Of a stretch of DNA of 64,000 bases, positions 5,287-10,980 are shown piece after piece. The notes beneath the pieces are model-generated. The model worked only from the letters and a program-made list of their open reading frames with translations, made no database searches and had not been told where the DNA came from. The position numbers and the translations under genes are program-made. Origin of the DNA: Bradyrhizobium sp. RD5-C2 (lineage in GTDB: Bacteria > Pseudomonadota > Alphaproteobacteria > Rhizobiales > Xanthobacteraceae); NCBI RefSeq assembly GCF_019972155.1, contig NZ_BOVL01000005.1, forward strand, positions 248,001 through 312,000, given 5' to 3'. Each line of letters starts with the position of its first letter. The first letter of the stretch is position 1.

Positions 5287-5595
5287 ATGCTCCGCATCGT
5301 CACGTGTCTGACGCTTTTGATTTCCCTTCAAGCGGCCGCGGCGCAAGACAGGGCGCCGGGCGTTTCTTCACAGCCCTATTTGGGCGGATCCACTTCGCCG
5401 CCGACCGATCTGCCGTCCGGGATCGGCAGTTACTGCATCTACGAAAACCTCATCTTCTCGATTGGCTCGCCCATGTGCGTTGGCAAGACGAGCTACGTAT
5501 GTGCTCCCGCGACAAACGATGCGGAGCTCGGTCAGCGGGGATATTGGTCAGCAAGACCAGCCGACCCGAAACTGACCGCGCCGGTGTGCCAGTAG
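5287..5595 (+). CDS. Small exported cysteine-containing protein of unknown function
   Basis: A 102-residue protein. Residues 1-19 (MLRIVTCLTLLISLQAAAA) form a clear Sec signal peptide, with cleavage probably just before QDRAPG. The mature part has four cysteines (in SYCIYENL, SPMCVGK, YVCAPA and the last CQ), which could form two disulphides in the periplasm. GGAGGGGACC sits directly upstream of the ATG, an excellent ribosome site. I recognise no family. It stands alone between the efflux pump and a repeat element. Confidence 0.7.
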   Translation: MLRIVTCLTLLISLQAAAAQDRAPGVSSQPYLGGSTSPPTDLPSGIGSYCIYENLIFSIGSPMCVGKTSYVCAPATNDAELGQRGYWSARPADPKLTAPVCQ

Positions 5596-5636
5596 ACTGG
5601 CTCCCGTCTCTCCCTTGAATCGAGAACCATCCTCAT

Positions 5637-5759
5637 CGTCGTCCTGGCGGAGGCCAGGACCCATTACCCCAAGTCTCGATTGTTGCGCGACGTTGGGGCC
5701 GCGAGCGTGTTCATCACTGAATGCGGTGGTTATGGATCCTGGCTTTCGCCAGGACGACG
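5637..5759. repeat. Intergenic palindromic repeat (CGTCCTGGCG...CCAGGACG family)
   Basis: Starts CGTCGTCCTGGCGGAGGCCAG and ends CTGGCTTTCGCCAGGACGACG, inverted copies of one another. The centre also has an inverted pair (GACCCATTACC / GGTTATGGATC, imperfect). It occupies the convergent gap between the small exported protein and the 100-aa gene. Confidence 0.7.
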
Positions 5760-5791
5760 CTGGAGAGAACTGCGCGCGAGCCCGCGTCCGC

Positions 5792-6094
5792 CTAACCCAC
5801 ATACACAAGGCTATAAACATACGACTTCGTCCCCTTGCGGCTCACCCAGTCGCCTTCCGGCGGATGATCGCCCTGATCGGCCGGCAGCACGTTCCAGGGG
5901 CGGCCGCTGCAGGATTGGCTCTCGGCGTCCCAGGCCACCCAGCCCCAGCTCGGCCGGTGCTCAATCCAAAGATCCTGATCCTGACGCTGGTAGCCGACGG
6001 TTCCATCGGGGCGGACTTTCCGGACAAAGCTGTAAACCAGGTCGTCACTCTGCCGGCGCAGCTCGAATCTCTCCCGGTTTTGCGGAGCGGCCAT
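5792..6094 (-). CDS. Conserved-looking hypothetical protein, probably Zur-controlled
   Basis: A 100-residue, tryptophan- and tyrosine-rich protein with no signal peptide or membrane segment (start MAAPQNRERFELRRQSDD; end YVYSLVYVG). The upstream strand reads GAGGAACTC before the ATG, a good ribosome site. Its start codon is only 27 bp from the Zur-box palindrome at 6122-6136, which it shares with the divergent zinc-uptake operon. This suggests expression under zinc starvation. I do not recognise a family. Its function is unknown. Confidence 0.65.
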   Translation of the reverse strand: MAAPQNRERFELRRQSDDLVYSFVRKVRPDGTVGYQRQDQDLWIEHRPSWGWVAWDAESQSCSGRPWNVLPADQGDHPPEGDWVSRKGTKSYVYSLVYVG

Positions 6095-6121
6095 GAGTTC
6101 CTCGTTGGTAGACTCGCGTTA

Positions 6122-6136
6122 TGTTATAATATAACA
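6122..6136. promoter_or_regulatory. Zur box (zinc-uptake repressor operator) in a bidirectional promoter
   Basis: The 15-bp sequence TGTTATAATATAACA has TGTTAT and ATAACA as perfect inverted arms around a 3-bp centre. This matches the alphaproteobacterial Zur motif (GTTAT-N3-ATAAC) as I know it. It contains a TATAAT hexamer (6125-6130) on the plus strand and a similar hexamer on the minus strand. Zn-Zur binding would therefore cover the -10 regions of both the zinc importer operon and the divergent 100-aa gene. Confidence 0.85.
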
Positions 6137-6144
6137 GTTGCCTC

Positions 6145-6342
6145 ATGGCGCATACGCACTCCCACGACGACCACCACCATCACGGCCACAGCCATCCCCA
6201 CGGGCACAGCCATGGCCCCTCGGCGCATCCGGCCCAGGCCGCGCCCTGGTCGATTCTGCGCATGCCGGTGCCGGCCCGGCTGGGCGCGGCGCTCGCGGTC
6301 TCGGCCTGCCTGTGGGCCGTCGTCTGGCTGGCGATGAGGTGA
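6145..6342 (+). CDS. Small His-rich single-pass membrane protein, first gene of the zinc operon
   Basis: A 65-residue protein. Residues 3-27 are a histidine/aspartate tract (MAHTHSHDDHHHHGHSHPHG), a likely Zn(II)-binding tail. Residues about 43-64 form one transmembrane helix (RLGAALAVSACLWAVVWLAM). The ATG lies 8 bp after the Zur box with no Shine-Dalgarno sequence, so the transcript may be nearly leaderless. The stop codon abuts the ATG of the ABC ATPase, which implies co-expression. A role in presenting zinc to the importer is inferred. I know of no named family. Confidence 0.75.
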   Translation: MAHTHSHDDHHHHGHSHPHGHSHGPSAHPAQAAPWSILRMPVPARLGAALAVSACLWAVVWLAMR

Positions 6343-7104
6343 ATGATGGGGTCTCCGCTTGTCACCTTCCGCGACGTCACGCTCGGCTACGATCGGCACC
6401 CGGCGGTGCACCATCTCAACGGCGCGGTTGAGGCGGGCGCGCTGCTGGCCGTGATCGGCCCGAACGGCGCCGGCAAGTCGACGCTGCTACGCGGCATCGC
6501 CGGCGTGCTCAAGCCGCTGTCGGGCGTGATCGATCTCGACGGGCTCGACCACCGTGACATCGCCTACCTGCCGCAATCCGCCGACATCGACCGTACGTTT
6601 CCGATCTCGGTGTTCGATTTCGTCGGCACCGGGCTGTGGCGCTCGACCGGCTTCTTCGGCGGCATCGGCAAGGCCGCGCGCGACAAGATTTTGGCGGCGC
6701 TCGCCGCCGTCGGCCTCAACGGCTTCGAGAACCGTCCGATCGGCACGCTGTCCGGCGGCCAGATGCAGCGCATGCTGTTCGCGCGTGTGCTGTTGCAGGA
6801 TGCCCGTCTGATCGTGCTCGACGAGCCGTTCAACGCGATCGATGCCAAGACCACTGCCGACCTGCTGACGCTGGTGAAGCGCTGGAACGGCGAGGGCCGC
6901 ACGGTGCTGGCGGCGCTGCACGACCTCGACATGGTGCGCAACAATTTCCCGGAAACGCTGCTCCTGGCGCGCGGCCCGGTGGAATGGGGCCCGACCGCGG
7001 AGACGCTGACGCCGGACAATCTGACGGTCGCGATGCGGATGTGCGAGGCGTTCGACGACAGTGCCGCGGCCTGCGCCGCCGATCCGCGCTCACGGGCCGC
7101 CTGA
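6343..7104 (+). CDS. aztA: Zinc ABC transporter ATP-binding protein (AztA/ZnuC type)
   Basis: A 253-residue ABC ATPase that powers Zn(II) import. Walker A is GPNGAGKST (residues 39-47), the signature is LSGGQMQRM, Walker B is LIVLDEP, and the switch histidine is in ALHDLDM. The family is the metal-chelate (ZnuC/MntB-type) group. It follows the His-rich peptide without a gap and is followed 5 bp later by the permease gene. Zinc specificity is supported by the upstream Zur box and the downstream CobW gene. The Azt rather than Znu assignment rests on overall appearance and the lack of a His-rich loop in the binding protein. Confidence 0.88.
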   Translation: MMGSPLVTFRDVTLGYDRHPAVHHLNGAVEAGALLAVIGPNGAGKSTLLRGIAGVLKPLSGVIDLDGLDHRDIAYLPQSADIDRTFPISVFDFVGTGLWRSTGFFGGIGKAARDKILAALAAVGLNGFENRPIGTLSGGQMQRMLFARVLLQDARLIVLDEPFNAIDAKTTADLLTLVKRWNGEGRTVLAALHDLDMVRNNFPETLLLARGPVEWGPTAETLTPDNLTVAMRMCEAFDDSAAACAADPRSRAA

Positions 7105-8911: not shown

Positions 8912-9961
8912 ATGGCTGAAGCTTCGCAAAAAATTCCAGTGACCGTGCTGACGGGCTATCTCGGCGCCGGCAAGACCACGCTGCTGAACCGCATCCTGTC
9001 GGAAAACCACGGCAAGAAATACGCCGTCATCGTCAACGAATTCGGTGAGATCGGCATCGACAACGACCTCATCATCGGCGCCGATGAGGAAGTGTTCGAG
9101 ATGAACAATGGCTGCGTCTGCTGCACGGTGCGCGGCGACCTCGTCCGCATCATGGACGGGTTGATGAAGCGCAAGGGCAAGTTCGACGCCATCATCGTCG
9201 AGACCACGGGCCTTGCCGATCCAGCGCCGGTCGCGCAGACTTTCTTCGTCGACGAGGACGTGCAGAAGAACGCCCGGCTCGATGCCGTGGTGACCGTCGC
9301 CGACGCCAAGTGGCTGAGCGACCGCCTCAAGGACGCGCCGGAAGCCAAGAACCAGATCGCGTTCGCCGACGTCATCGTGCTGAACAAGACCGACCTGGTC
9401 TCGAAGGCTGAGCTCGCCGAGGTCGAGGCCCGGATTCGCGGCATCAATCCCTACGCAAAACTGCATCGCACCGAGCGTTGCCAGGTCGGGATATCAGACG
9501 TGCTGGAGCGCGGCGCGTTCGATCTCGACCGCATCCTGGAGATCGAGCCGGATTTCCTCGAGGCCGGCGACGGTCACGACCACGACCACGATCATCACCA
9601 CGGTCATGACCATGATCACCATCACCAGGATCACGGCCACGGGCTGAAGCACTATCACGACGAGGACATGCAATCGCTGTCGCTGCGTTCGGACAAGCCG
9701 CTCGACCCGACCAAGTTCATGCCCTGGTTGCAGAACCTCGTCGCCACCGAAGGCCAGAAGATCCTGCGCTCGAAGGGCATCCTCGCCTTCACCGGCGATG
9801 ACGACCGCTACGTGTTCCAGGGTGTCCACATGATGCTGGAGGGCGACCATCAGCGGAAGTGGAAGGACGGCGAGAAGCGCGAAAGCCGCGTCGTGTTCAT
9901 CGGTCGCGAATTGCCGGAGCAGGCGATCCGCGACGGCTTCGAGCAGTGCATCACCACGTGA
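8912..9961 (+). CDS. CobW/COG0523-family G3E GTPase with His-rich loop (zinc metallochaperone)
   Basis: A 349-residue GTPase. Walker A is GYLGAGKTT (residues 15-23), the metal site is GCVCC (67-71), and the guanine motif is NKTD (158-161). Residues 222-249 form a His/Asp-rich loop. The CobW C-terminal domain follows, ending RELPEQAIRDGFEQCI. Zur-regulated COG0523 proteins of this type (ZigA/ZagA group) are zinc-transfer chaperones used during zinc limitation. The ATG at 8912 is 54 bp after the binding-protein gene, and the frame ends by overlapping the WD40 gene by one base. The client enzyme is unknown. Confidence 0.88.
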   Translation: MAEASQKIPVTVLTGYLGAGKTTLLNRILSENHGKKYAVIVNEFGEIGIDNDLIIGADEEVFEMNNGCVCCTVRGDLVRIMDGLMKRKGKFDAIIVETTGLADPAPVAQTFFVDEDVQKNARLDAVVTVADAKWLSDRLKDAPEAKNQIAFADVIVLNKTDLVSKAELAEVEARIRGINPYAKLHRTERCQVGISDVLERGAFDLDRILEIEPDFLEAGDGHDHDHDHHHGHDHDHHHQDHGHGLKHYHDEDMQSLSLRSDKPLDPTKFMPWLQNLVATEGQKILRSKGILAFTGDDDRYVFQGVHMMLEGDHQRKWKDGEKRESRVVFIGRELPEQAIRDGFEQCITT

Positions 9962-10980
9962 TGAAAGAGTTCGATCCGGGCGAGGCCCCTTCTTCCATCG
10001 TGTCGATCACCGATCGCGTCAAGCCGCTTCCGCTTGGTGCTGCGGTCGGTTCGGTGCATTTCCTCGGCGACCGCGCGTTCTTCGTCGGCGCCGAGGAGAG
10101 TGTCGCGATCGCGACCGCCGACGGCGAGATCACGCGCACCGAGACGCATTTCGGCGCCATCCTGTGCGCGGTCTCCGACGGCAAGCGGCTCGTCACCGGC
10201 GGTGACGACGGCAAGCTGATCGCGATCGACGCCAAGGGCGAGACCTCTGTCATTGCGACCGACGCCAAGCGGCGCTGGATCGACAATGTCGCCCTGCACG
10301 GCGACGGCACCGTGGCGTGGTCGGCGGGCAAGACTGCCTTCGTGCGTAATCCCAAGGGCGAAGAGAAAACCTTCGAAGTGCCGTCGACCGTCGGCGGGCT
10401 GGCGTTCGCGCCGAAGGGCCTGCGGCTTGCGATCGCGCATTACAACGGCGTGACCTTGTGGTTTCCCAACATGGCGGCCAATCCGGAATTCCTGGAATGG
10501 GCCGGCTCGCATCTCGCGGTCTCTTTCAGCCCGGACAATAAATTCCTGGTCACGGCGATGCACGAGGCCGCGATGCATGGCTGGCGGCTCGCCGATAACA
10601 GGCACATGCGGATGAGCGGCTATCCCGGCCGCGTGCGCTCGATGTCATGGAGCGCCGGCGGCAAGGGGCTCGCGACCTCGGGCGCCGATACCGTGATCGT
10701 CTGGCCGTTCACCAGCAAGGACGGGCCGATGGGCAAGGAGCCGGCGATGCTGGCGCCGATGCCGGCGCGGGTCGCAGTGGTCGCCTGCCATCCGAAGAAC
10801 GACATCATGGCGGTCGGCTATGCCGACGGTACTGTGCTGATGGTCCGGCTCGAAGACGGCGCCGAGATCCTGGTGCGCCGGAATGCCGGTACCGCGGTCT
10901 CCGCGCTGGGATGGAATGCCAAGGGCACGCTGCTCGCCTTCGGCACGGAAGATGGTGACGCGGGCATCGTGGAAATGTAA
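9961..10980 (+). CDS. Cytoplasmic WD40-like beta-propeller protein coupled to the CobW GTPase
   Basis: A 339-residue protein made of repeated beta-strand blades. Examples are TGGDDGKLIAIDAKGE, VSFSPDNKFLVTAMHEAAMHGWRL, SWSAGGKGLATSGADTVIVWPF and VGYADGTVLMVRLEDGAEIL. There is no signal peptide, so it should be cytoplasmic. The ATG overlaps the CobW stop codon by one base, which implies translational coupling and joint function. The WD40 fold suggests a scaffold, perhaps presenting a client protein to the GTPase. This differs from periplasmic AztD, which is also a propeller but is exported. The role is inferred from position. Confidence 0.82.
   Translation: MKEFDPGEAPSSIVSITDRVKPLPLGAAVGSVHFLGDRAFFVGAEESVAIATADGEITRTETHFGAILCAVSDGKRLVTGGDDGKLIAIDAKGETSVIATDAKRRWIDNVALHGDGTVAWSAGKTAFVRNPKGEEKTFEVPSTVGGLAFAPKGLRLAIAHYNGVTLWFPNMAANPEFLEWAGSHLAVSFSPDNKFLVTAMHEAAMHGWRLADNRHMRMSGYPGRVRSMSWSAGGKGLATSGADTVIVWPFTSKDGPMGKEPAMLAPMPARVAVVACHPKNDIMAVGYADGTVLMVRLEDGAEILVRRNAGTAVSALGWNAKGTLLAFGTEDGDAGIVEM

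Follow-up and report, generated by a model that had tools for sequence, protein, structure and literature searches.

Zinc ABC importers of the AztABCD type, as in Paracoccus denitrificans, have the genes for an ATPase, a permease and a binding protein arranged in this order behind a Zur site. The same arrangement is found in the stretch of Bradyrhizobium sp. RD5-C2 DNA analysed here, which covers 64,000 nucleotides and is called the window below, and in NCBIfam its ATPase, permease and binding protein match AztA, AztB and AztC best. Unlike AztABCD, the window proteins score below the curated cut-offs of these families (215.2 against 220 bits for AztA, 262.1 against 280 for AztB and 295.4 against 350 for AztC); those of ZnuA, ZnuB and ZnuC are missed as well, at 74.1 of 268, 85.5 of 284 and 99.2 of 306 bits. 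The window operon also differs in opening with an extra small membrane protein, which was not seen in the azt loci examined from Paracoccus versutus, Klebsiella and Sinorhizobium numidicum. AztD is absent among the identified genes of the operon, and a search for it gave no match in 142 class genomes, the window genome included, a result that had no positive-control genome behind it and is taken as a hint only.

Two further systems are relevant for comparison. ZniCBA of Rhizobium leguminosarum is a Zur-controlled importer that has been compared with AztC, and its Zur motif lies 153 bp before zniC (PMC12183173). The available text of that account mentions no small gene; we predict that the 153-bp gap could hold one. 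The same source describes a His-rich domain in Paracoccus AztC, which is absent from the aztC-like protein of the window. The second system is the cluster of COG0523 subfamily 5 with a WD40 gene and znuABC, in which the link of the GTPase and WD40 genes to the transporter has been described (PMC2770081); the GTPase and WD40 genes that follow the transporter in the window fit that cluster, and no small membrane protein is mentioned in the text of that account available to us.

The zinc operon of the window lies on the plus strand and starts with an ORF of 65 codons at 6145-6342, whose product carries 13 histidines, all within residues 1-30, and one C-terminal hydrophobic segment. The part common to its homologues is the core of residues 35-65 (WSILRM...RL...LW..VWLAMR, 6247-6339). 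Immediately after the stop codon comes the ATG of an aztA-like zinc ABC transporter ATPase gene (6343-7104), followed by an aztB-like permease gene (PF00950, 7110-7979) and an aztC-like gene for a periplasmic zinc-binding protein (PF01297, 7985-8857). This binding protein is without a His-rich loop and has only a short GGHDDPHAW stretch. The operon goes on with a COG0523 (CobW/ZigA-like) GTPase (8912-9961), which contains a His-rich stretch, and a WD40-repeat protein (9961-10980), whose start shares one base with the GTPase stop; Skermanella mucosa has this gene order too.

The preliminary description had presented the small protein as a His-rich membrane peptide with a poly-His tail. Its richness in histidine and its membrane segment were borne out, but the poly-His run belongs to the N-terminal half, and it is the C-terminal half that is hydrophobic. 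In the genus alignment the N-terminal half is a variable His-rich stretch, while the C-terminal half is nearly fixed. The conserved part of the family is this C-terminal single transmembrane segment with the pattern R...LW..V.WA, and the window protein has the conserved R, LW and WA. Homologous small ORFs encode roughly 30-100 residues, with or without a His tail. Many members from the same order carry His-rich tails, and among the members examined outside the class one (L178) has a long tail. The best 19-residue hydropathy window had a mean of at least 1.6 in 141 of 142 loci. Since the net positive charge flanking the segment was higher on the N-side in 85 of these 142 loci and on the C-side in only 6 (51 equal), the N-terminus, with the His tail where there is one, is probably cytoplasmic.

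Comparison of coding frames indicates that the small ORF is a conserved gene whose protein sequence is under selection. For the core, pN/pS averaged 0.34 in frame versus 1.85 and 1.86 when the frame was shifted either way, calculated from 27 of 30 genus sequences after three that misfitted the pattern had been dropped; aztA gave 0.21 in the same analysis. Family searches returned no convincing match in Pfam or NCBIfam. The 65-residue window protein matched no Pfam family at E ≤1 and in NCBIfam only DmeF, at E 0.13. When 42 cores were compared with Pfam, weak matches were scattered over 11 families (CbtB, FixQ, FixS, DUF2474 and others), each in one or two members; the best was FixQ, in one of the 42 cores at E 0.004, from a search that does not give member cut-offs. 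For 20 full-length members, no NCBIfam match was better than E 0.026. We found no description of the protein in the open-access literature, a scope that leaves most subscription journals outside the search. Tiny single-helix subunits encoded beside the complex they serve are exemplified by CydX, KdpF and CbtB. The small protein of the window resembles this type in size, helix and gene position, although sequence matching gave no link (no Pfam family at E ≤1).

The place of the gene suggests a role in zinc import. Within the genus, the small protein was matched in 193 of 195 genomes, and in the 30 best loci, whose neighbours were examined, aztA lay directly downstream in every case. Alignment searches matched 34 of 297 genomes at the order level, four of the 34 being without a locus, and 51 of 289 at the class level, where 22 of the 51, the window's own genome included, gave no new locus. 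Adjacency was scored when the predicted aztA start fell between -13 and +64 nt from the stop of the small ORF. By this measure, 84 of the 88 loci have the small ORF next to an aztA-like gene, namely 30/30 from the genus, 29/29 further loci from the order and 25/29 further loci from the class. The four non-adjacent cases are two chance matches inside large unrelated proteins (L110 and L119), a contig end (L115) and a locus with aztA about 1 kb further on (L116). The phylum-level search matched 50 of 259 genomes, half of which (25) belong to other classes. After 5 of 30 fetched loci had been left out as repeats, all 25 examined loci had aztA beside the small ORF; 14 of these lie outside Alphaproteobacteria and 7 had already been seen at lower levels.

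Examples include a plasmid of Skermanella mucosa, on which a 46-aa hypothetical protein precedes AztA, a permease, a binding protein, a GTP-binding protein and a WD40 protein, and a plasmid of the betaproteobacterium Comamonas antarctica, again with a 46-aa hypothetical protein before AztA. In Neorhizobium the small ORF is present before aztA but unannotated, and plasmids of Azospirillum, Methylobacterium and Thioclava carry it likewise. Because the search alignments were enlarged stepwise by adding hits, weak matches gained late depend on the search itself; the position before aztA provides the independent test. The earlier suggestion that the 65-aa peptide is an undescribed partner of the zinc importer is strengthened by this conserved position, at a breadth beyond the one proposed.

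The relationship was also followed from the permease side. The AztB profile matched 183 of 289 class genomes at E ≤1e-45, a set that includes ZnuB-like permeases. Of the 61 top-ranking genomes, 58 carry the small ORF ahead of aztA, 24 of them by locus, 21 by the core profile upstream of the permease (four weak) and 13 by search coordinates only. The class search had given no match near the permease in 23 of the 61, and it was in 21 of these 23 that the core profile, run on the upstream DNA, recovered the ORF; the weak recoveries (L121, L140, L141 and L142) scored 9-11 bits. Since the core is short and hydrophobic, single weak matches carry little weight without position. The remaining three are a genome with no such ORF (G647, L138), one with the ORF about 1 kb from aztA (G498, L116/L150) and one with a stretch lacking aztA (G502, L124). 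An open frame of 22,922 aa was seen around the permease of G653:C3 (L131), perhaps owing to masked stretches.

Control loci with ZnuB-type permeases had no small ORF beside the ATPase gene (0 of 7), with two chance matches at E 0.88 and 1.9. Five plasmid aztA loci of the AztABCD type, from S. numidicum, P. versutus, Phyllobacterium, Mesorhizobium and Klebsiella (L154, L156, L158, L159 and L162), also were without the small ORF, and aztD is annotated beside three of them. Not every AztB relative thus needs the small protein. The possibility that the small ORF is an N-terminal piece of AztA was ruled out, because the offset between its stop and aztA falls in differing frames across lineages.

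In front of the operon lies a Zur-like operator, TGTTATAATATAACA, at 6122-6136, a palindrome listed without a strand. It contains the inverted repeat TGTTAT...ATAACA of reported alphaproteobacterial Zur sites exactly, and it has the same form as the Caulobacter sites listed and reported as validated in the text available to us (PMC4176598). The box is the sole match at ≤2 mismatches within the 64 kb window, and none of 100 dinucleotide-preserving shuffles had a match. It ends 8 nt before the ATG of the 65-aa ORF at 6145 and lies 27 nt from the minus-strand ATG at 6094 of a 100-aa ORF; both spacings are as the preliminary description gave them, and both flanking ORFs are open. The proposal made there that a Zur box heads the zinc operon is supported, in that a Zur-like box precedes the zinc genes; control by Zur is what we infer.

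In the whole genome, places with ≤1 mismatch to the box number three, the window box included. The second is at least about 0.5 kb upstream of a TonB-receptor plug domain gene, with another short ORF intervening, and the third is some 50-60 nt before a CobW/COG0523 GTPase gene; genes of this kind would be expected near the sites of a Zur regulon. Three proteins of the FUR family exceed the cut-off in this genome, and one has CAHC near its C-terminus, a cysteine pair of the kind that we take to be a mark of Zur, although it was not distinguished from other Fur proteins. At two loci (L071 and L085), a small protein without a His tail lies close behind a coding stretch with a Zur-like end, with CxxC near the C-terminus as judged by eye.

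Boxes of this kind accompany the small protein in other genomes too, as a search that had been suggested earlier now shows. A palindrome with ≤3 mismatches to TGTTATANTATAACA occurred in the 300 nt upstream of the core in 104 of 142 loci, a pool in which some loci repeat a genome; the reversed pattern gave 8 such loci and shuffled sequence 1. For the 103 loci above L066, nearly all from outside the family with a few genus repeats, the corresponding counts were 65, 7 and 1, which leaves 38 of the 103 without such a palindrome.

The box may also hold the promoter. Hexamers resembling -10 elements had been noticed on both of its strands and are present: the plus strand reads TGTTATAAT and the minus strand TGTTATATT, each near the extended -10 form TGnTATAAT. 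If transcription began about 7 nt beyond TGTTATAAT, the leader would be about 8 nt long. In Bradyrhizobium the box ends 7-10 nt before the ATG in 37 of 38 loci, four of which have a nearer in-frame TTG, so that there is no room for a Shine-Dalgarno sequence; its absence before 6145, remarked on earlier, was confirmed on reading the sequence between box and ATG. The view that the operon is nearly leaderless gains from the conservation of this very short gap. At the single exception (L057) the gap is 29 nt and holds a second, weaker palindrome, TGTTGTAATGTAACA (minus strand, about 1696-1740). Most Bradyrhizobium loci have a [TA][GA]GAC[AT] block 7 nt before the box. This block is disfavoured as a -35 element, and an extended -10 reading is preferred, because its spacing would be 15 to TATAAC and 10 to TATAAT. 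In Bradyrhizobium japonicum, a TGnTA motif before leaderless mRNAs and 320 start sites at 0-10 nt before start codons are reported in the text available to us (PMC4842269).

On the other side of the box, the minus strand encodes the 100-aa protein (5792-6094), a neighbour that is probably outside the zinc system. Its model, of high confidence (pLDDT 90.1), has eight beta-strands, and the predicted fold is a small beta-barrel. A solved relative was not convincingly found, the best E being 0.74 by sequence and 0.083 by Foldseek; the best VIA-align hit (Z 5.8, rmsd 3.1 over 79 residues) falls in the range that the tool calls common. A phage origin was considered and dropped, as there were no PHROGs families and no match in phage records. 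Beyond this gene, an inverted repeat at 5634-5762, with 35-nt arms at 5634-5668 and 5728-5762 that are 86% complementary, looks like a dispersed repeat, and a 102-aa ORF at 5287-5595 begins like a signal peptide and matches nothing in Pfam or NCBIfam at E ≤1.

The preliminary description had made the 100-aa protein a new zinc-starvation gene, and had suggested looking for it beside Zur boxes in other genomes. It was matched in 13 of 195 genus genomes and lies beside the box in nine, in three of which it is broken; its closest named match that also has the box is in Bradyrhizobium tropiciagri (L005). Across the 30 best loci of the small peptide, the 100-aa gene is intact in 6, broken in 3, reduced to its 5' end in 12 and without trace in 9, and the 12 remnant loci keep both box and small peptide intact. 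Relatives occur in Bradyrhizobium sp. BTAi1, with an IclR-type regulator among the neighbours, in Devosia, in a Caulobacter MAG and in Nostoc linckia, as well as in three other genomes of the order and four plasmid records. None of eight loci with relatives elsewhere (four named, four of the genus) has such a palindrome at ≤3 mismatches, and the genes around them differ. A gene that is rare, often broken or a remnant, and without the box elsewhere does not sustain the earlier claim; judged from these loci, the protein shows no general link to zinc, and we read the gene as one that ended up next to the box and is disappearing from this clade.

Within the clade, the 100-aa protein might still be a second, co-regulated zinc-starvation gene, transcribed from the minus-strand extended -10 in the same box. 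The 27-nt gap, an AGGA-like site before the start in intact copies and the constraint on these copies (pN/pS 0.31 for five, with 0.11 for aztA and 0.38 for the small-protein core in the same genomes) would agree with such a role, as would the Caulobacter MAG, where a TonB-receptor gene of unspecified substrate stands about 0.5 kb from the relative and a zinc link could also explain the pairing. The few matches in the genus, the remnants beside intact boxes, the relatives that are without the palindrome and the lack of a recognisable -35 on the minus strand, as read from the sequence, speak against it, and we hold co-regulation to be rather unlikely.

For the small protein itself, the histidines invite the idea of a free zinc buffer tethered to the membrane, in which the His-rich N-terminus binds zinc at the inner membrane face and the helix is only an anchor. 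The 13 histidines of the window protein and the His-rich tails of its relatives, up to L178 outside the class, are what such a buffer would have; yet many members do without a tail and keep the segment with its R, LW and WA residues, and conservation resides in the segment, not in the tail. This makes the buffer unlikely, slightly more so than the co-regulation just discussed. Leader peptides usually lack a conserved membrane helix. This counts against a model in which the small ORF serves only by being translated, this act governing how aztA is translated or transcribed, with a product that itself has no role. Its shortness, its first place in the operon and a stop that often overlaps or touches the aztA start would suit translational coupling, but the segment keeps its amino-acid sequence in different classes, and purifying selection acts on it within the genus; we regard the leader peptide as the least probable of the three alternatives.

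We favour, with modest confidence, a reading in which the 65-aa protein represents, in Bradyrhizobium, a widespread family of small membrane proteins and serves as a Zur-controlled subunit of an AztABC-like zinc importer. Position, conservation and selection support it, and from them we infer contact with a partner and a function. When zinc is scarce, Zur would leave the box, whose extended -10 RNA polymerase could then use; the resulting, nearly leaderless mRNA would yield the small protein, the ATPase and the permease. The single helix would most likely lie next to the AztB-like permease, with its N-terminus in the cytoplasm, and act as a small subunit for stabilising or gating. In lineages that have one, the His tail would probably catch zinc on the cytoplasmic side, and it may hand the metal on to the operon's own His-rich COG0523 GTPase.

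Zinc importers of this kind are described as three- or four-gene systems, and a conserved small membrane protein encoded just ahead of the ATPase would have consequences for reconstitution, assays and annotation. The protein may also link the importer to the His-rich COG0523 GTPase encoded with it. More broadly, we suggest, at a little under even chances, that a Pseudomonadota-wide branch of zinc ABC importers has an obligate extra membrane component, overlooked by annotation because it has only about 30-100 residues; it would contribute, on the cytoplasmic side, to the passage or hand-over of zinc and would mark the branch without AztD as AztD marks classical AztABCD.
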